Origin: an uncultured bacterium
Lineage (GTDB): Bacteria; Patescibacteria; JAEDAM01; Absconditabacterales; Absconditicoccaceae
Direction of reading: 5' to 3'
Assembly (NCBI GenBank): GCA_903904545.1
Contig: CAIVDB010000005.1
Span: forward strand, 1 to 5,926
Length of the DNA: 5,926 nt
Shown: positions 170 to 5,926 of the stretch, piece after piece
Position numbering within the stretch: position 1 is the stretch's first letter
How the letters are laid out: each line of letters starts with the position of its first letter
Notes under the pieces: generated by a model
Databases searched by the model: none
What the model was told of the DNA's origin: nothing
What the model saw: only the letters and a program-made list of their open reading frames with translations
Made by a program: the position numbers and the translations under genes

Positions 170-1111
170 ATGATATTGTCTTGAAAAAACATTTCCCTTG
201 AACTACAAAATAAGCTCTCTGAACAGGTAAAAACTGCCTTTGCTGGCAGAAAACCTTATGTGGCTATTCTTTTCCTTGGAGAAGATTATTCCTCCGCTAC
301 GTATGTGAAGCATAAAAAATCTTATGGAGCTTCTTTGGGCTTGCCGGTTATTGTTTTTGGACAAAATCAACATGCAGAGTATGATAGAAATCAGGTGGGT
401 CGCTTTGATGATGTGAGTATTTATATCAATCAAACCTATGATAGTATCGGTAAGGTTATGGAACTTATTCGTTACCTCAATCATGATGATGAATGTGTGG
501 GTATCCTTGTCCAACTTCCTTTACCAGAGCAATTTGCTTCGTATAAAACAGAGATATTGTCTGCCATTACCCCAACCAAAGATATTGATGGACTGGGCGG
601 AGTAGTGACATGATTATCTTCCATTGACCTTATAGATTTTACTCCAGCGACACCAAGAGCGGTATTGATGCTTTTGGACCACTATGAATTAGGTGACATG
701 AGTGGCAAGATGGTGTCTATTATAGGGCAGAGTAATGTAGTCGGTAAGCCTCTTATCTTCGAATGTATCAAGAGATGAGCAACCGTTGCTTCATTCAATC
801 AGGACAATTCTTTGGAGGAAATACAATCTGTATGTAAACAGTCAGATTATATCATTTCTTGTACAGGAAAAGTACATCTCGTCAACGAGCAGTTTATCCG
901 TGATGATCAGACGCAGATTATTGTGGATGTGGGCTATGGACATATCGATGGTAAACCCGTGGGAGATGTCCAAATCGATGCTATTGCAGATAAAGTGGCT
1001 GCCTATACGCCAGTTCCTGGTGGTGTTGGCCCTCTTACCGTAGCGTGCATTTTCTCTAATGTGTTGGATTTACAAAATTACAAGGAAATATTAAAACCAT
1101 ATAAATTATAA
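170..1111 (+). CDS. folD: Bifunctional methylenetetrahydrofolate dehydrogenase / methenyltetrahydrofolate cyclohydrolase FolD
   Basis: FolD oxidises 5,10-methylene-THF to methenyl-THF with NADP+ and hydrolyses it to 10-formyl-THF in the cytosol, feeding one-carbon units to purine synthesis and initiator Met-tRNA formylation. Read with TGA=Gly the protein has 313 residues. The N-terminal catalytic domain has SGKNIS (4-9, matching the family DGKxIA), the Tyr-x3-Lys pair (Y45, K49) in ATYVKHKK, VQLPLP (114-119) and KDIDG (137-141). The Rossmann domain has GQSNVVGKP (186-194) and ends with TPVPGGVGP (280-288). In-frame TGA codons at 182-184, 611-613 and 776-778 give G5, G148 and G203; G5 and G203 (RGATV) match family glycines. 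The ATG at 170 was chosen because it starts the conserved SGK segment; starting at 260 would delete about 30 conserved residues. It is longer than the roughly 288-residue E. coli protein, mainly from about 20 extra residues around 60-85. Stop is TAA. No Shine-Dalgarno is seen. Confidence 0.96.
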
Positions 1112-1130
1112 TATAATTGCTTTTAATGTT

Positions 1131-1250
1131 TTTCTAGGGCGTTTCCGTAGGACATACTTTTTGTGCAACGCTTTGCTGAGACCTATTTTTCTTCTAGGGT
1201 GTTTCCGTAGGACATACTTTTCGTGGGACGCTGCGCTGGGCCCTACTTTT
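1131..1250. repeat. 60-bp tandem duplication, two copies
   Basis: Bases 1131-1190 and 1191-1250 align end to end with no gaps at 50 of 60 positions (my count). The best conserved core is GTTTCCGTAGGACATACTTT, identical at 1141-1160 and 1201-1220. The right halves differ most, and the second copy is richer in GC. The copies lie just downstream of the folD stop. I do not recognise a named element; an unmobilised local duplication or a dispersed intergenic repeat are both possible. Confidence 0.9.
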
Positions 1251-1270
1251 TTCATTGCCAAAAAAGTAGG
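1242..1270. repeat. 11-bp perfect inverted repeat with 7-base loop
   Basis: CCTACTTTTTT (1242-1252) pairs perfectly with AAAAAAGTAGG (1260-1270) around the loop CATTGCC. It begins inside the end of the second 60-bp copy. As RNA it would make a stem whose upper part is only A-U pairs. It could contribute to ending folD transcripts, but there is no free U-run after the stem, so a classical Rho-independent terminator is not shown. Confidence 0.55.
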
Positions 1271-1358
1271 CAAAAAGGCTAGTCGCAACAAGACTCGCAG
1301 ACCTTATGTTACAGACTCGTTATTTTTGTTTTGTGTTTCTAATTTTGGTAGTCCATCT

Positions 1359-1395
1359 AGTGAACTCCCAACCTTCGGTCGGGCTCCGGTTCACT
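1359..1395. repeat. Compound hairpin, possible terminator of folD or nrdB
   Basis: An outer 7-bp stem (AGTGAAC 1359-1365 with GTTCACT 1389-1395) encloses an inner stem (CCCAACC 1367-1373 with GGTCGGG 1377-1383, one A/C mismatch, loop TTC). It lies about 250 bases after folD and 190 bases after nrdB. The following sequence is AT-rich but has no strong T-run on either strand, so it may instead be a dispersed structured repeat. Confidence 0.4.
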
Positions 1396-1484
1396 TTACA
1401 AATTGATTTGTATTTATTGTTGAAGGATAGCTCGGACAAATTGTTGCGACGGATACATCGGAGTTTTTTATAAAAAATTACTGT

Positions 1485-1494
1485 CTACCGGTAG
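1485..1494. repeat. Palindrome CTACCGGTAG, degenerate copy of the element at 4071-4086
   Basis: The 16 bases 1481-1496 match 4071-4086 at 13 of 16 positions, and both centre on CTACCGG. The copy here is more AT-rich and its palindrome is shorter. Two related copies in intergenic DNA of one small window suggest a dispersed repeat family. Confidence 0.45.
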
Positions 1495-1519
1495 GGCTTA
1501 AAGCATGAATCTTTTATAC

Positions 1520-1554
1520 AAAAAAATCCCAACACGTACTCCCGCTCGGGCGGG
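1520..1554 (-). terminator. Candidate nrdB terminator: GC hairpin with distant T-run
   Basis: Reading on the - strand, about 35 bases after the nrdB stop, CCCGC (1554-1550 complement) pairs with GCGGG around a 4-base loop. A run of seven T (1526-1520) follows after a 14-base gap. The gap between stem and T-run is too long for a textbook Rho-independent terminator, so this is tentative. The GC-rich CCCGCTCGGGCGGGG core also resembles a dispersed CPR-type palindrome. Confidence 0.35.
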
Positions 1555-1588
1555 GTTCTTAATTCTGCATTCTGAATTCTACATTCCA

Positions 1589-2629
1589 TTAGAAATCCCA
1601 TGAGCCTTTCATACTGCTCGATTGGGTATAATTCGTTACGGTGGATTCAAAGAAATTTCACTTGTCCATATTGTTATCTTGGAGTCTTTCTAAATGTTTA
1701 TAAGGATTTTCTGTGATTTCTGGATAGAGGGGCTGGAGTCCAATGAGGCGAAGTCTGTCATTTGCTAGTCGTTTTGTATAGGTCTCGATTGTTTTTTCGT
1801 TGATGCCTAGTACTGCATTTCCTAAGATAAATTGTGACCATTTGATTTCCTGTTCTACTGCGATGGTAAACATTTCATAAATCATTTTCTCGTCAAACAT
1901 CTCCGGGAATTCTTTTTTTATCTCTTTGAGGATGTTGGTAAAGAGCGTCACATGTGTCAGTTCATCTCTGCGAATATAATTGATCATTCTGTCTGTTGCT
2001 TTCATTTTTTGGTGATCAGCAAGCGTATCGAAGAATGCGAATCCATTATAGAAATACAATCCTTCCAACAAAAAGTTTCAGATGATTCCTTTAAATAAAT
2101 TTACATCATTAGGCTCGTCGATGAAACTTTGATAAATATTTCCAATGAAGGTATTTCTTTCCAGAAGAATCTCATTTTCTCTCCAGAAATAATAAATCTC
2201 ATCTCTTTTGCTTTGTTCATTGACGATAGATTCTAAAATCGTTGCATAACTTTGGGAATGAATAGCCTCTTGATAGGTCTGAATAGCTAAAATCAGGTTG
2301 ACTTCAGGGGCTGTGATGTATTCAGAGAAGTTTGGAAGATTGACGGTTTGGATACTATCAAGGAAGATCAAAAAGGAAAGTATCCCATCATAGGCTCTAC
2401 GTTCTCCATCGCTCAGATCTTTTTGGTAGCAGATGCTATCCTCATTAAGTCCAGAGACTTTTTCTGGTACTCGAAAATTCCCTATCATGATGGTGTAGAG
2501 TGATTTGGCTCGAGCGTATTTGGTATTATTGAGATTGAAGAGGCCTGTAGTATTGCCTTTGATTATTGTTCTTTCTCCTGCATCGTCATTCCCATTGGGA
2601 TTGAAAAGCTTGTTTGGGGTGATGTTCAT
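1589..2629 (-). CDS. nrdB: Ribonucleoside-diphosphate reductase, small (beta, R2) subunit NrdB
   Basis: R2 houses the dinuclear metal site and stable tyrosyl radical of class I ribonucleotide reductase and passes the radical to NrdA. With TGA=Gly it is 346 residues. Metal ligands and radical site follow E. coli R2: D91 in FLDSIQ, E121/H124/Y128 in EAIHSQSY (Y128 matches radical Tyr122), E189 in LLEGLYFY, and E223/H226 in RRDELTH. The Tyr makes a radical-type R2 more likely than the Tyr-less Ic type. The C-terminus has NFFESTV and ends WDF, the R1-contacting tail. In-frame TGA at 2078-2080 and 1656-1658 gives G184 and G324; read as a stop, the second would remove the tail, and the first would remove half the metal site. 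The ATG at 2629 starts the segment that looks like R2; an upstream ATG at 2728 would add a basic hydrophobic stretch with no family match. Stop is TAA. Its partner nrdA lies about 2.3 kb upstream, across three redox genes. Confidence 0.96.
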
Positions 2630-2639
2630 GCTATTTCTG

Positions 2640-2651
2640 TTTATATATAAA
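2640..2651 (-). promoter_or_regulatory. TATA-rich palindrome just upstream of nrdB
   Basis: TTTATATATAAA is a perfect 12-base palindrome ending 11 bases before the nrdB ATG. It could act as a -10 region giving a very short or leaderless transcript. No convincing -35 box is visible at the usual spacing, so this rests on composition and position only. Confidence 0.25.
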
Positions 2652-2763
2652 ATTGGCTTGACTTTTATGCGTATTTTCTTATATTTCATTACAGTACATA
2701 AGGCGATATGGGAGATGAATGACGGCATAATGCGTCCGTTCCTCTCTTTCCCTCCGTTTTGTG

Positions 2764-2778
2764 TAGTTGAATCAACTA
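2764..2778. promoter_or_regulatory. 15-base palindrome in the ahpC-nrdB gap
   Basis: TAGTTGA and TCAACTA are perfect inverted arms around a single A. It lies about 135 bases upstream of nrdB on the - strand, right beside a larger inverted repeat. The size and symmetry suit a dimeric regulator site. It does not match the NrdR box pattern (ACAC...GTGT ends) that often controls such genes, and no regulator is identifiable. Confidence 0.3.
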
Positions 2779-2781
2779 ACC

Positions 2782-2831
2782 GGGTGTGTAATTATTGTAG
2801 ATGATATTTCATTTATCTTAATTATACACCC
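2782..2831. repeat. Long imperfect inverted repeat upstream of nrdB
   Basis: GGGTGTGTAATTA (2782-2794) pairs with TAATTATACACCC (2819-2831) at 12 of 13 positions around a 24-base AT-rich loop. On RNA the one mismatch can be a G-U or A-C pair depending on strand. It lies in the 262-base gap between the ahpC stop and the nrdB start, the longest gap between the - strand genes. It may be an nrdB leader structure, an operator pair, or part of the ahpC transcript end. Confidence 0.45.
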
Positions 2832-2891
2832 TAACCTTATTCTTGAAAATTCTTATATATCTTCTTGGAGGGCAGTCTTGACTGTTCTTTT

Positions 2892-3485
2892 TTAAATTTC
2901 TCCGATTTTCCCTGCGATTTTGATCGATGGATGAAGAATGCTTTCTCCTACGTTCCAACTTGCAGGGCATGCAGATCCTGGATTAGCTCTTACAGATTCT
3001 AATGCTCTTATTTTTCTCAGTAATTCTACGCTGCTTCTTCCTATAGGTTCAGTGACTATCTCTATAGACTTGATAAATCCATCTGGGGAAATAATAAAGG
3101 TTCCTCTTTCGCTATTACCAGAAGTCTCATTTAATACTCCAAGTATTTTACTTAGTTCTCCTGTTCTATCGCTTATCATGTTGATACCAAAATTTTCTAG
3201 TAATTTCTCAGTCTCTATTCGTCTCTTGTGAGAGAAAACGGTATCAGTACTTGCTACTAGAATTTCAGCCTTGCTGTCCTGGATCTCTTTATATATCTTA
3301 TTGATGTCCTTGAGTTCTGTAGGACAGACAAAGGTAAAATCTGCAGGATAGAAGAAGAGGATCAATCGTTTTCCTTCGTATTCATCTATCATCTTGGTGA
3401 TGATTTCATCGTTTTTGGGAGTGTAGAGAGTGAGTTGTCTATTGGGAAGTTTTTCTTCTAAATGAAGTGATGTTTGGTTTTCCAT
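2892..3485 (-). CDS. ahpC: AhpC/Prx1-type 2-Cys peroxiredoxin
   Basis: This thiol peroxidase reduces hydrogen peroxide, organic peroxides and peroxynitrite in the cytosol, and is normally re-reduced by AhpF or a thioredoxin system; neither is in the window. The 197 residues cover the whole family length. YPADFTFVCPTE carries the PxxxTxxC active site (P47, T51, peroxidatic C54). STDTVFSHK (80-88), R127 in ERGTF and IGRSSVELLRKIRA follow. The resolving cysteine C173 sits in GSACPASW, with a GKI near the end as in E. coli AhpC. So it should form the typical intersubunit disulphide. The ATG at 3485 gives the normal N-terminus. There is no in-frame TGA, so the gene reads the same in either code; stop is TAA. 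A 22-base palindrome lies 39-60 bases upstream and may be an operator. It precedes nrdB by 262 bases on the same strand. Confidence 0.95.
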   Translation of the reverse strand: MENQTSLHLEEKLPNRQLTLYTPKNDEIITKMIDEYEGKRLILFFYPADFTFVCPTELKDINKIYKEIQDSKAEILVASTDTVFSHKRRIETEKLLENFGINMISDRTGELSKILGVLNETSGNSERGTFIISPDGFIKSIEIVTEPIGRSSVELLRKIRALESVRANPGSACPASWNVGESILHPSIKIAGKIGEI

Positions 3486-3523
3486 GATAATTAGATTAAT
3501 GGTTAAAAAATTATTTTTATGTA

Positions 3524-3545
3524 GAGATAATTCATAAATTATCTC
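3524..3545. promoter_or_regulatory. Perfect 9-bp palindrome upstream of ahpC, candidate operator
   Basis: GAGATAATT (3524-3532) and AATTATCTC (3537-3545) are perfect inverted arms around CATA, 39 to 60 bases upstream of the ahpC ATG. The GATAAT/ATTATC core resembles Fur/PerR-family boxes, and peroxiredoxin genes are classic PerR targets, but the spacing is not the standard one. A weak hairpin in RNA is the alternative. Regulation is inference; the symmetry is seen. Confidence 0.4.
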
Positions 3546-3552
3546 ATAAATT

Positions 3553-3572
3553 AGCCAGTTCGTGAACTGGCT
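3553..3572 (-). terminator. Hairpin after bcp, candidate terminator
   Basis: AGCCAGTT and AACTGGCT form a perfect 8-bp stem around a 4-base loop, starting 10 bases after the bcp TAG on the - strand. The downstream sequence is AATTTATGAG, AT-rich but without a strong T-run, so termination may be weak. The position directly between bcp and the ahpC palindrome suggests the two genes are at least partly separate transcription units. It may also be a dispersed palindromic repeat. Confidence 0.5.
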
Positions 3573-3581
3573 CTACGGAAT

Positions 3582-4034
3582 CTATTGTTCAATTCCTAAT
3601 TCTTTCATGATTTTGGCTACGTGGCCTGTTGCCTTGACGTTCTTTCGTGCTTTGATGATATTCCCTTCTTGATCTATAAGGAAGGTAGATCTAATGGTTC
3701 ATTCATAGATCTTTCCGTAATTGCTTTTTTCTCCTCGTGCACCAATTTTTTTGTGCAATACAAGTTCTGGGTCGGAGATGAGTGGTATAGAAAGACTGTG
3801 TTTTGTAATAAAATTACAATGTGCAGCATCTGCGTCTTTACTTACTCCATAGATTCATATCCCATGTTTAAGAAACGTTGCATATTCATTAGAGAAATCT
3901 TTTGCTTCTATTGTACACCCAGGAGTATCGTCTTTGGGATAGAAGTAAATAATTATTCTCTCATTTTTCTTGAGTAATTCATTGAATTCTACCTCTTGAG
4001 GATCATGATTGAGGAGTGAAATATGTACTTTCAT
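3582..4034 (-). CDS. bcp: Bcp/PrxQ-family peroxiredoxin (thiol peroxidase)
   Basis: Bcp/PrxQ is a cytosolic, usually monomeric thioredoxin-dependent peroxidase. With TGA=Gly it has 150 residues, normal for the family. YFYPKDDTPGCT gives the PxxxTxxC site (P33, T37, peroxidatic C40). Then GIGIYGVSKD, PLISDPE, the GARGEKSNYGK segment, and EGTIRSTFLID. TGA at 3855-3857 and 3699-3701 gives G60 and G112; G112 is the family glycine in G-x-x-R-x-T/S-F-L-I-D. The usual resolving cysteine five residues after the peroxidatic one is Lys here (K45), so it may work as a 1-Cys enzyme; C73 is the only other cysteine. The N-terminus is about five residues shorter than E. coli Bcp and lacks the common AP-x-F motif. 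ATG at 4034 is preferred; the ATG at 4100 would read through a palindromic repeat as ASLPAGRQG. Stop is TAG. No Shine-Dalgarno is seen. Confidence 0.94.
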
Positions 4035-4046
4035 GGTGAATGGGGA

Positions 4047-4111
4047 AAAAGATAAAAGCTCGTCTTCGCCCTGCCTACCGGCAGGCAGGCTCGCGTTCAA
4101 AAGATAAACGC
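4047..4111. repeat. GC-rich palindromic element flanked by 13-bp direct repeats
   Basis: AAAAGATAAAAGC (4047-4059) and AAAAGATAAACGC (4099-4111) match at 12 of 13 positions and bracket a 39-base GC-rich insert. The insert has a hairpin, CCTGCC (4070-4075) with GGCAGG (4080-4085), loop TACC, then a further CAGGC. In translation the insert reads LPAGRQG, a peptide that I recall recurring in CPR protein predictions as a sign of a dispersed repeat. The layout looks like a small inserted element with a target duplication, in the nfsB-bcp gap. It could also aid termination after the nitroreductase gene. Confidence 0.5.
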
Positions 4112-4124
4112 TTTGCGATAAAGC
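4110..4124 (-). terminator. Weak hairpin after the nitroreductase gene
   Basis: On the - strand, 6 bases after the TAA at 4131, GCTTT and AAAGC can pair around a 5-base loop, followed by the T-rich GTTTATCTTTT. Only five pairs, so it is a weak candidate Rho-independent terminator. Confidence 0.25.
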
Positions 4125-4130
4125 AGAGTT

Positions 4131-4778
4131 TTATTTTTCGATGATGAGCTGTTCTAAAGGAAATCTTACTTTAGGTAGGTTCGCATATTTATCTTCAGCA
4201 TCTCTATATCCTACAGGGATGACTAAGGTTGTTGTAAGCTCAGGATCTAATCCAAGTATCTCATTGTATTTTGCAGGTTCAAATCCTTCCATAGGACAAG
4301 CGTCTATCTCTAGAAGTGCACAGGTAGTAAGCAAAACTCCTATAGCAATATATGCTTGTTTCTGACTCCATCTTTTGAGCTCTTCCTCAGATTTATTTAT
4401 GATAGATCCCTGCATTCTTTGCTTAAATGTTTCAAGTCCTTTTTTATCCTCTTCTGTTCTCTCTGGAGAGGTTCTTGTCTTGATAATATCTTCGATATAT
4501 TCATCGATATCTTTTTCTTGGACATGAATCTTGGATGCAATGATGATAAGATCGGATGCTTGAGTTACTTGTTCTTGCCCATAGGAAGCTTCTTGTAACT
4601 GTGTTCTAATCTCTGAATTTTTTACATGGATAAATTTCCATGGTTGCATACCAAAAGATGATGGTGCTAATCTGAGTGACTCTAGGAGGGTAGTAAGATC
4701 TTGCTGACTTATTTTTTTGTTTGGATCGAAGTGCTTGGTGGCGTAGCGTCGGTTGAGGGCTTGGATAATGTCGTTCAT
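4131..4778 (-). CDS. NfsB-type FMN-dependent NAD(P)H nitroreductase
   Basis: This family makes homodimeric cytosolic flavoproteins that use NAD(P)H to reduce nitroaromatics, quinones or flavins; the physiological substrate is usually unknown. The 215 residues match the length and order of E. coli NfsB (217). The FMN phosphate site is RRYATK (10-15). APSSFGMQPWKF (38-49) matches the family SPSSxxxQPWxF. KQAYIAIG (140-147), CPMEGFEP (161-168, with the FMN-contacting Glu-Gly) and LPKVRFP (201-207, phosphate-binding Lys/Arg) follow. ATG at 4778 is chosen because the sequence upstream of it, reaching back to an ATG at 4928, translates to simple-repeat peptide. No in-frame TGA; stop is TAA. It sits 157 bases after nrdA and 96 before bcp. 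The specific gene symbol is left blank because substrate cannot be read from sequence. Confidence 0.92.
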   Translation of the reverse strand: MNDIIQALNRRYATKHFDPNKKISQQDLTTLLESLRLAPSSFGMQPWKFIHVKNSEIRTQLQEASYGQEQVTQASDLIIIASKIHVQEKDIDEYIEDIIKTRTSPERTEEDKKGLETFKQRMQGSIINKSEEELKRWSQKQAYIAIGVLLTTCALLEIDACPMEGFEPAKYNEILGLDPELTTTLVIPVGYRDAEDKYANLPKVRFPLEQLIIEK

Positions 4779-4799
4779 GGATTGGCTTGTAAAAAATAA

Positions 4800-4930
4800 A
4801 AATGGAGTTAAGGGTTTAGAATTTATGGTTAAGGGTTGAGTTAAGAGATCAGAGTTTGGAGTGAGGATTGTGAGATTTTGCTTATAATTCATAACCCAAC
4901 CCATAACGCTTAACTCTGCATTATGCATTC
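4800..4930. repeat. Degenerate simple-repeat spacer between nrdA and the nitroreductase gene
   Basis: On the - strand this stretch is made of TTAACTC/CTTAAC/ACTCCAAACTCTGA-type units, with TGCATAATGCAGAG at its nrdA end. It translates into a peptide of the MHNAELSVMG type and fuses in frame to the nitroreductase, which is why a longer start is misleading. Similar low-complexity spacers lie at 131-163 and 1561-1587. No clear promoter can be singled out. Confidence 0.5.
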
Positions 4931-4935
4931 AATTC

Positions 4936-5926
4936 CTATCCACTACAACTTGCACATTCTTTGACATCTAAACTCATACTTCTGACATAATAGATGGTCT
5001 TGATGCCTTGTTCTCGTGCTTGGAAATAATATCCAAAGAGCTCTTGTGGCGAGACTTGCGCAGGATCGATGATTCGTTCAAATGAGATGGATTGATCAAT
5101 TCGCTTTTGTATTCATGAGATCATATTGATGACTTCTGGCATTTTCATGTGGGCATATTCCTTATAATATCGCATATTTTTGGTGCTGAGTTTTGGTGCG
5201 ACATTGACAGAGGGTGCGATGCTATTTGTTTCCACAAAATATTTTCTATAGATAGGAAGCAGTCAGGCAGTCGTACCTACCACGAGTGATGTAGACGTAT
5301 TCGGAGCAGGGGAGAGATGATATCCAAATCTGACTCCATACTTTCTTATCTCTTGGATAAGTTCTCCTCGTTTTTCTTTGAGCTGGGTATGATGCGTGAG
5401 ATAGTCTTCATCTTTACCAAATAAGATTCCCTTAGACCAATCGCTTCATTCGAAGAGTTCGTACTTTCCTCTTTCTTGAGCTAAATCTTTGGATGCTTTG
5501 ATAGTATGATAGGCATAGTGTTCAAATAATCCTTCGACGTGATCTTTTGCAAAAGGACTATCGTAGATCATATTGTTGGTAGCGAGATACTCTGCGAGTC
5601 CGAGGAATCCTAGTCCCACACTTCTATATCTCTTTGCTGTAATTTCTGATTCTTTGACGGGATAGAAGTTGAGCGTGATGACGTTGTCCAATATTCTCAT
5701 AGCAATAGGGATGATTTCCTCCATTTCTTCTTGTGTGTGTACTTTGGCTACATTGATAGAAGCAAGGTTACAGACCACAGTATCTCCTGCTTGATAGGAG
5801 ATAGATACTTTCCCATTTTCTTCTGTTTCCTGGATAAACTTAGAAGGGGAAGTATTCTGTGCTATCTCAGTACAGAGTTGAGAAGAATAAATATTTCAGC
5901 TGTGTTTATTGGGGTTGGTTTTGTTG
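4936..5926 (-). CDS. nrdA: Ribonucleoside-diphosphate reductase, large (alpha, R1) subunit NrdA, C-terminal part
   Basis: R1 reduces ribonucleoside diphosphates to deoxy forms in the cytosol, using a thiyl radical generated through NrdB. Only the last 329 residues are inside; the N-terminus (ATP cone, first active-site Cys) lies beyond the right edge. Visible: NPNKHSGNIYSSQLCTEI with thiyl-radical Cys (C18 of the fragment) and E20, the redox partner Cys in VVCNLASINVA (C52), SPAPNTSTS, IQKRIDQSIS, the radical-transfer pair YY (312-313), and a C-terminal ECASCSG with the CxxC that shuttles electrons from thioredoxin or glutaredoxin. TGA codons at 5896-5898, 5446-5448, 5263-5265 and 5113-5115 give glycines; the first falls in the conserved SGN before the active-site Cys. 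About 4 of 19 glycines use TGA. The residue two before the active-site Cys is Gln where Asn (N437 in E. coli) is expected. Stop is TAG. Confidence 0.96.

Follow-up and report, generated by a model that had tools for sequence, protein, structure and literature searches.

Glycine at UGA and tryptophan at CGA in a chromosomal fragment assigned to Absconditabacteria (SR1): evidence from sequence comparison

Genes of the window and its relatives

The DNA analysed here, a stretch of 5,926 nucleotides from contig CAIVDB010000005.1 of an uncultured bacterium (referred to as the window), carries folD on the plus strand and, on the minus strand, nrdB, the genes for an AhpC-type peroxiredoxin, the PrxQ peroxiredoxin Bcp and an NfsB-type nitroreductase, and the 3' part of nrdA (Table 1). 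These six genes comprise 1,550 codons, including 11 in-frame TGA, 13 CGA, 7 TGG, 39 AGA and no CGG; none of them contains an in-frame TAA or TAG. Comparison with homologs and with the DNA of relatives leads us to conclude that the window very probably belongs to the chromosome of a member of Absconditabacteria (SR1) in which two codons have changed their meaning, UGA being read as glycine and CGA (and possibly CGG, where it is present) as tryptophan. If so, CGA accounts for 13 of the 20 tryptophan codons of the window.

A sequence-only reading of the same DNA had placed eleven in-frame TGA codons in folD, nrdB, bcp and nrdA and had interpreted them as glycine under genetic code 25. All eleven are real and lie inside family-matching genes, ten of them at the positions originally given, while the one in nrdB placed at 1656-1658 is located at 1658-1660. 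Its remark that the six genes stop at TAA or TAG agrees with our count (four TAA, two TAG), and the glycines of the four TGA-containing genes, estimated at about 74, number 75 (64 GGN and 11 TGA). The genes for the AhpC-type peroxiredoxin and the nitroreductase, two further genes that were missing from its list, lack TGA. As to the code itself, glycine at UGA is upheld, whereas arginine at CGA, which table 25 retains, is not, the 13 CGA codons of the window being found at tryptophan sites.

The relatives comprise eight loci (G001-G008), 67-82% identical, that were obtained by scanning genome contigs for nrdB. G006 (CP006913.1) is the complete SR1 chromosome RAAC1_SR1_1, the only complete chromosome among them; the record of G005 is labelled SR1, those of G001 and G007 (DJVF01000030.1) Patescibacteria, and that of G008 Gracilibacteria. 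G001-G007 are here called SR1 genomes, five of them on account of nrdB identity (77-82%), transfer RNAs (tRNAs) and codon pairs. The nearest nrdB in the databases is 93% identical to that of the window, and another, at 77% identity, is named Candidatus Absconditabacterales. In G006, homologs of the five minus-strand genes of the window occupy 895-901 kb in unchanged order, and folD is close by. Judged by these relatives, the window is assigned to Absconditabacteria/SR1.

Residues and codons opposite TGA and CGA

At ten of the eleven TGA sites, GGN is found in the DNA of a relative or glycine in other homologs. Homolog columns were read from the 120 sequences listed for each of nrdB (of 3,120), nrdA (of 269) and bcp (of 7,997), and the comparison with PDB is based on the five alignments listed per protein, mostly with near-identical chains. 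The remaining site, nrdA codon 271, counts against glycine, as none of 99 homologs possesses it there; moreover, at nrdB codon 324, bcp codon 60 and nrdA codon 221 residues other than glycine are also common.

Codon pairs were counted in a sample consisting of the window and the seven SR1 genomes (G006 as a whole, the other six as samples of 18-319 kb). Open reading frames (ORFs) were paired as reciprocal best matches at E 1e-15, with weaker overlapping ORFs and pairs below 45% identity removed, and a codon pair was counted only if, among the six columns before it and the six after it, at least six were identical; an earlier count, in which shadow ORFs were included, was noisier and has been replaced. 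The pairs were counted in both directions and sites are repeated across partners, so that the numbers below are not numbers of independent events. The partners of TGA (n = 6,319) comprise 3,322 GGN, 2,077 TGA, 15 tryptophan codons, 14 arginine codons and 891 others, i.e. TGA is exchanged with GGN and hardly with tryptophan codons.

Tryptophan at UGA, as in Mycoplasma (table 4), would explain why database proteins carry tryptophan at some of the TGA sites and why, in a residue-column scoring from database homologs (8 TGA sites), W (10.7) comes out slightly above G (9.3), a result that also speaks against glycine. In the same scoring, GGA columns give W at 34.0 as well, and one database protein (P0018) carries "(gcode 4)" in its name, which points to code-4 translation as the source of such residues. 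It would therefore seem that the tryptophans at TGA columns belong to database proteins translated with TGA as tryptophan. Because database proteins seem to carry tryptophan at glycine columns, residue-column scoring is unfit for TGA, and the codon pairs at the DNA level were used in its place. Given the 15 tryptophan codons against 3,322 GGN among these pairs, and the glycine-type acceptor bases of the tRNA(UCA) of G006 described below, we regard tryptophan at UGA as virtually untenable. Code 4 of Mycoplasma and Spiroplasma, where release factor 2 (RF2) has been lost, resembles the code of the window in that UGA is a sense codon, but differs in that UGA would here mean glycine and not tryptophan.

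For the 13 CGA codons of the window, homologs and the DNA of relatives, joined by solved structures at bcp codon 130 and ahpC codons 40 and 89, indicate tryptophan sites, not arginine sites. The aligned relatives always possess TGG, CGA or CGG at these positions, with the exception of a single ACA, and TGG is present in at least one relative at 12 of the 13 (the thirteenth is nrdA codon 252; see Table 1). In the reverse comparison, one or more relatives have CGA or CGG at each of the seven TGG sites of the window. Tryptophan is the commonest residue at all eight CGA sites of nrdB and nrdA, as well as at both CGA sites of bcp, among the 120 homologs listed for each, and residue-column scoring of CGA (10 sites) gives 42.7 for W and 0.5 for R. 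Among the codon pairs, CGA (n = 1,573) is matched with TGG 574 times, with CGG 52, with CGA 793, with arginine codons 7, with TGA 6, with GGN 4 and with other codons 137 times. CGG, absent from the six genes of the window, is paired in the relatives (n = 145) with TGG, CGA or CGG in 126 cases and with arginine codons in 3; G001, with only four CGG pairs (none with tryptophan, two with arginine, the rest with K and N), is unlike G002-G004, G006 and G007. In the Gracilibacteria locus G008 (three ORFs), which served as a control, CGA is opposite arginine in 32 of 42 pairs, and TGG of G008 is opposite CGA of SR1 in 18 of 28; by this comparison, the change of CGA is placed inside SR1. Finally, translation of CGA as tryptophan instead of arginine raises the leading Pfam score in all five proteins concerned (nrdA +21.1 bits, nrdB +14.8, AhpC-type peroxiredoxin +8.4, Bcp +1.3, nitroreductase +0.6) and the leading NCBIfam score in all three that were tried (+13.2, +17.3 and +11.2).

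Several observations are at odds with tryptophan at CGA. Arginine ranks second at all eight CGA sites of nrdB and nrdA (e.g. 29 of 120 at nrdB codon 40), presumably on account of proteins from the same lineage that were translated with CGA as arginine. Bcp codon 100 is opposite isoleucine in all five listed PDB alignments, and nitroreductase codon 10, for which the case is weaker than for any other of the 13, is opposite F, F, W, F and N in the five listed for that protein. Three secondary Pfam scores drop when CGA is translated as tryptophan: Redoxin by 1.8 in both Bcp and the AhpC-type peroxiredoxin, and TM1586_NiRdase by 0.6.

The view taken in the sequence-only reading, namely code 25 in its exact form with glycine at UGA as the sole change and CGA left as arginine, could draw on this second rank of arginine, on the fact that code 25 translation yields recognisable proteins (family matches were obtained with it for all six), and on the label "Arg" that ARAGORN assigns to the UCG tRNA of the relatives from its anticodon. 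We nevertheless consider it extremely improbable in view of the tryptophan sites occupied by CGA in the window, the 574 pairs of CGA with TGG as opposed to 7 with arginine codons, and the increase of the leading Pfam scores. Another explanation, in which TGA and CGA result from errors in sequencing or assembly or mark decaying genes, might appeal to a possible origin of the window from an environmental assembly, but is hardly credible for genes that contain eleven TGA and yet no TAA or TAG, and whose independent relatives carry TGA or GGN, and CGA or TGG, at the same sites. The reading of UGA as glycine and CGA as tryptophan is supported by sequence comparison in the window as well as in its relatives.

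As a separate observation, database homologs with arginine at CGA-type tryptophan columns and tryptophan at TGA-type glycine columns look as if they had been translated with an incorrect code, which may introduce errors when profiles are built.

Table 1. Genes of the window and predicted meaning of their TGA and CGA codons (residues are those of homologs or PDB alignments, codons those of relatives)
Feature	Position	Strand	Details
folD	170..1111	+	313 codons; 3 TGA (Gly; codons 5, 148, 203), 0 CGA, 0 TGG; stop TAA
nrdB, class I ribonucleotide reductase small subunit	1589..2629	-	346 codons; 2 TGA, 3 CGA, 3 TGG; stop TAA
ahpC-type peroxiredoxin	2892..3485	-	197 codons; 0 TGA, 2 CGA, 1 TGG; stop TAA
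bcp (PrxQ peroxiredoxin)	3582..4034	-	150 codons; 2 TGA, 2 CGA; stop TAG
NfsB-type nitroreductase	4131..4778	-	215 codons; 0 TGA, 1 CGA, 2 TGG; stop TAA
nrdA, large subunit, 3' part (5' end outside the window)	4936..5925	-	329 codons; 4 TGA, 5 CGA, 1 TGG; stop TAG
TGA (Gly), folD codon 5	182..184	+	Gly in all 3 covering PDB alignments (of 5 listed); TGA in G003, G006
TGA (Gly), folD codon 148	611..613	+	GGA in G006; TGA in G003
TGA (Gly), folD codon 203	776..778	+	Gly in 3 of 5 listed PDB alignments, the remaining two with D and K; TGA in G001, G006; GAG in G003
TGA (Gly), nrdB codon 324	1658..1660	-	G in 68 of 120 listed homologs; Ser/Thr in 7 of 7 SR1 relatives; GGA in G008
TGA (Gly), nrdB codon 184	2078..2080	-	TGA in 4 and GGA in 3 of 7 SR1 relatives; GCC in G008
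TGA (Gly), bcp codon 112	3699..3701	-	G 78, W 41 among listed homologs; GGA in 1 and TGA in 4 of 5 relatives
TGA (Gly), bcp codon 60, variable site	3855..3857	-	3 of 5 relatives with GGA/GGT/TGA, the other two with AGT and CAA; homologs mainly Q, V
TGA (Gly), nrdA codon 271	5113..5115	-	V 63, T 28 of 99 homologs; V/T in 6 of 6 relatives
TGA (Gly), nrdA codon 221	5263..5265	-	A 59, G 26 of 101 homologs; GGA/GGG/TGA in 6 of 6 relatives
TGA (Gly), nrdA codon 160	5446..5448	-	G in 102 of 111 homologs; GGN/TGA in 6 of 6 relatives
TGA (Gly), nrdA codon 10	5896..5898	-	G in 80 of 82 homologs; GGN/TGA in 6 of 6 relatives
CGA (Trp), nrdB codon 287	1769..1771	-	W 74, R 27, Y 18 of 120 listed homologs; TGG/CGA in 8 of 8 relatives
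CGA (Trp), nrdB codon 53	2471..2473	-	W 97, R 23 of 120 listed homologs; TGG/CGA in 7 of 7 relatives
CGA (Trp), nrdB codon 40	2510..2512	-	W 91, R 29 of 120 listed homologs; TGG/CGA in 7 of 7 relatives
CGA (Trp), ahpC codon 89	3219..3221	-	W in 4, F in 1 of 5 listed PDB alignments (near-identical proteins); CGA/CGG/TGG in 6 of 6 relatives
CGA (Trp), ahpC codon 40	3366..3368	-	W in 5 of 5 listed PDB alignments (near-identical proteins); CGA/TGG in 6 of 6 relatives
CGA (Trp), bcp codon 130	3645..3647	-	W in 5 of 5 listed PDB alignments (four near-identical); W 78, R 19, Y 11, M 7 among listed homologs; CGA/TGG in 5 of 5 relatives
CGA (Trp), bcp codon 100	3735..3737	-	W 48, Y 31, R 14, F 14 among listed homologs; CGA/TGG in 5 of 5 relatives
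CGA (probably Trp), nitroreductase codon 10	4749..4751	-	TGG, TGG, CGA, ACA in 4 relatives
CGA (Trp), nrdA codon 304	5014..5016	-	W in 86 of 97 homologs; CGA/CGG/TGG in 6 of 6 relatives
CGA (Trp), nrdA codon 284	5074..5076	-	W in 93 of 99 homologs; CGA/TGG in 6 of 6 relatives
CGA (Trp), nrdA codon 275	5101..5103	-	W in 90 of 99 homologs; CGA/TGG in 6 of 6 relatives
CGA (Trp), nrdA codon 252	5170..5172	-	W in 87 of 99 homologs; CGA in 6 of 6 relatives
CGA (Trp), nrdA codon 186	5368..5370	-	W in 99 of 107 homologs; CGA/CGG/TGG in 6 of 6 relatives

Transfer RNAs and release factors of the relatives

A search of the window for tRNA genes found none. In seven of the eight related genomes, i.e. the seven SR1 ones, a tRNA gene with the UCA anticodon is present and identical in all 74 bases, while it was not found in G008. 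In G006 it has the glycine-type acceptor bases G1:C72, C2:G71, G3:C70 and U73; this criterion and that for tryptophan tRNAs (G73 and no A20) follow Shulgina and Eddy (PMC8629427). The gene was recovered by ARAGORN on the complete chromosome of G006; a pattern search that required an invariant motif in the anticodon loop returned 23 matches, and ARAGORN run on the 20 loci excised from these detected no UCA tRNA. In total, ARAGORN identified 37 tRNA genes in G006, including those with the anticodons UCA, UCG, CCG, GCG, CCU and UCU and tRNA-Trp with CCA. The tRNA(UCG), present in the same seven of the eight relatives, has, as read by eye, G73 and no A20, whereas the other three arginine tRNAs of G006 possess A20; tRNA(CCG) was found in five of the eight. 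The UCG and CCG tRNAs of G006 are closer to tRNA-Trp(CCA) (identity 0.55 and 0.62) than to the other three arginine tRNAs (0.37-0.54). Every related genome has one trpS, the gene for tryptophanyl-tRNA synthetase (TrpRS), above the cut-off.

Release factor 1 (RF1) is present in all eight relatives, above its cut-off in six of them. None of the eight contains a match over the RF2 cut-off, and in all of them the best match to the RF2 model is the RF1 gene; a further weak match to this model occurs in five. A glycine tRNA with the UCA anticodon and the loss of RF2, both of which the sequence-only reading had suggested looking for, are thus seen in the genomes of the relatives, the former in seven of the eight. 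What diminishes the force of these findings is that tRNAs and release factors were read in the relatives and not in the window's own genome, and that all relatives except G006 consist of many contigs or are drafts, so that the absence of RF2 from them carries less weight.

We propose that a dedicated tRNA-Gly(UCA) would read UGA as glycine and that RF2 would be gone, therefore leaving RF1 to end translation at UAA and UAG only. Likewise, tRNAs with UCG and CCG anticodons and the features of tryptophan rather than arginine tRNAs would read CGA (and CGG) as tryptophan, both presumably being charged by the single TrpRS, and arginine would be encoded mainly by AGA. This scheme supposes charging and decoding of this kind in the cell, and we infer the same set of tRNAs and release factors for the genome to which the window belongs.

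The tRNA(UCA) is invariant across the seven SR1 genomes, whose NrdB proteins are 75-82% identical to that of the window. The genes near it in the loci that were scanned are those for tRNA-Tyr, tRNA-Ala, tRNA-Arg(UCU) or tRNA-Glu.

Codon choice, strand bias and known codes

CGA is common in the SR1 genomes, its share of TGG, CGA and CGG taken together being 31% in G001, 40% in G002, 50% in G003, 54% in G004 (a small sample), 41% in G005 (likewise small), 39% in G006 and 46% in G007; in these counts the ORFs of the window carry N-terminal extensions and hence contain 8 TGG and 12 TGA. CGA outnumbers TGG in G003, in the small sample of G004 and in the window. In whole-ORF counts, its frequency amounts to 34-59 per 10,000 codons in the conserved ORFs of the relatives and to 78 in the ORFs of the window. 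CGA is used also at conserved tryptophan sites (e.g. 55 CGA, 9 CGG and 40 TGG in G003).

In G006 the choice between the two codons depends on the strand: CGA makes up 552 of 1,045 CGA and TGG codons on the plus strand (53%) and 202 of 868 on the minus strand (23%), the contrast being slight over the first 300-440 kb or so and large beyond. Genes of G006 are heterogeneous in their share of CGA (368 genes; chi-square 663, compared with a permutation mean of 366 and standard deviation of 21, a value reached in none of 1,000 permutations), and this share is correlated with GC skew at fourfold sites (Spearman -0.48; 228 genes). The corresponding correlation is -0.50 in G001 and -0.40 in G007, weak in G003 (rho -0.20, p 0.10) and absent from the sample of G002 (rho 0.00), while the TA skew (TA4) correlates in all five genomes, G002 and G003 included. 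The minus-strand genes of the window have a pooled fourfold-site GC skew of -0.59, i.e. in the direction that favours CGA, and the homologs of all six genes in G006 are located on its CGA-rich plus strand, at 895-908 kb. The 13:7 ratio of CGA to TGG in the window was initially a candidate for an effect of lineage alone, which we dropped, as the same 20 sites in G006 contain 14 CGA, 5 TGG and 1 CGG, compared with 39% CGA chromosome-wide. A rise of CGA use with UGA use was also dropped, since genes of G006 exhibit no such correlation (rho -0.03).

CGA and TGG are two bases apart; of the two intermediates, CGG would be neutral, while TGA means glycine, which would bar the direct path by way of UGA. 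UGG, CGG and CGA would then form one mutationally linked set of tryptophan codons (UGG-CGG-CGA), from which strand-specific mutation would largely pick the codon; a choice that tracks mutation bias is what one would expect if the codons are equivalent in use. Hence we are inclined to believe that in this SR1 lineage the transfer of CGA to tryptophan is finished rather than beginning, CGA being a full and sometimes the leading tryptophan codon, conserved sites included, and that its exchange with UGG is governed mainly by strand mutation along the CGG route. The strand effect, as read in the relatives, suggests a near-neutral exchange of old and new codons and, if the above is true, the first reassignment (UGA) would have shaped how the second (CGA) can spread.

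A less advanced state, in which CGA would be ambiguous (mostly tryptophan, partly arginine) with the reassignment still in progress, is in line with the few pairs of CGA with arginine codons (7 of 1,573), with the lower share of CGA at conserved (60 of 170) than at variable (14 of 31) tryptophan sites of G006, and with the 2021 work of Shulgina and Eddy (Codetta), who predicted tryptophan at CGA and CGG in Absconditabacteria, described CGA as rare and the change as being at an early stage, and warned of possible ambiguity (PMC8629427). We find it very unlikely, as in none of the five genomes analysed do conserved sites differ significantly from variable ones (CGA versus TGG, Fisher p 0.31-0.80), and CGA constitutes 31-54% of the tryptophan codons of the seven relatives.

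The correct code for the window, to judge from these comparisons, is that of Absconditabacterales, with glycine at UGA and tryptophan at CGA and CGG, which we take to be NCBI table 37 (a search for papers containing the phrase "translation table 37" found none). It shares with NCBI genetic code 25 (SR1 and Gracilibacteria) glycine at UGA and, in the relatives, the absence of RF2 and the presence of tRNA-Gly(UCA), but code 25 has arginine at CGA, where the window and the seven SR1 genomes have tryptophan; annotation by table 25 thus places arginine at 13 tryptophan sites in the six genes of the window. That UGA means glycine is true and, as the sequence-only reading noted, already established; for SR1 it was published in 2013, reportedly by Campbell and co-workers. 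In a proteomic study of a BD1-5/SN-2 bacterium that supported glycine at UGA, 40 peptides at the highest stringency have glycine at UGA, as opposed to single ones with Trp, Ala, Lys and Asp (PMC4032931).

The agreement with the Absconditabacterales code as described in PMC8629427 extends to the tRNA(UCG) and tRNA(CCG) with tryptophan features; the reassigned codons are rare there, with CGA below 37 per 10,000 in aligned Pfam domains, a value not strictly comparable with our whole-ORF counts. A paper from 2026 treats tryptophan at CGA and CGG in Absconditabacterales as given (PMC13092985). The codes of Anaerococcus and of Onthovivens/RFN20 Bacilli, as outlined in both papers (PMC8629427, PMC13092985), resemble the present one in that a codon of the arginine box has passed to tryptophan by way of an altered tRNA; they differ in that only CGG has changed there, CGA remaining arginine, whereas here CGA is the main reassigned codon. 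Literature searches on this code and on strand and codon usage in Absconditabacteria yielded, besides these two papers, a phage paper from 2023 (PMC10746230). In the passages of the two papers that were covered (supplements and most subscription papers being outside this scope), we found no report of a strand effect or of CGA exceeding UGG. What our comparison would add is strong support for tryptophan at CGA in the lineage, together with the indication that CGA is common and follows strand bias. With two reassignments and the second codon common, tryptophan at CGA should be easily testable by mass spectrometry.

As to the use of TGA, the sequence of G007 stands out: TGA constitutes 2,588 of its 3,987 glycine codons (65%; 160 conserved ORFs), compared with 25-31% in G001, G002, G003 and G006, and its RF1 gene contains 18 in-frame TGA. 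As to the remaining features of the window, nrdB could start at position 2728 under code 25, which would make it longer, but the start at 2629 fits better with the profile match and with the homologs, which are mostly about 345 residues long. The gap between folD and nrdB contains, by eye, a direct repeat at 1141-1221, with two copies of gtttccgtaggacatactttt 60 bases apart. Upstream of bcp, at 4068-4095, we also noticed by eye a palindrome-like GC-rich stretch, with an in-frame LPAGRQG preceding the start.

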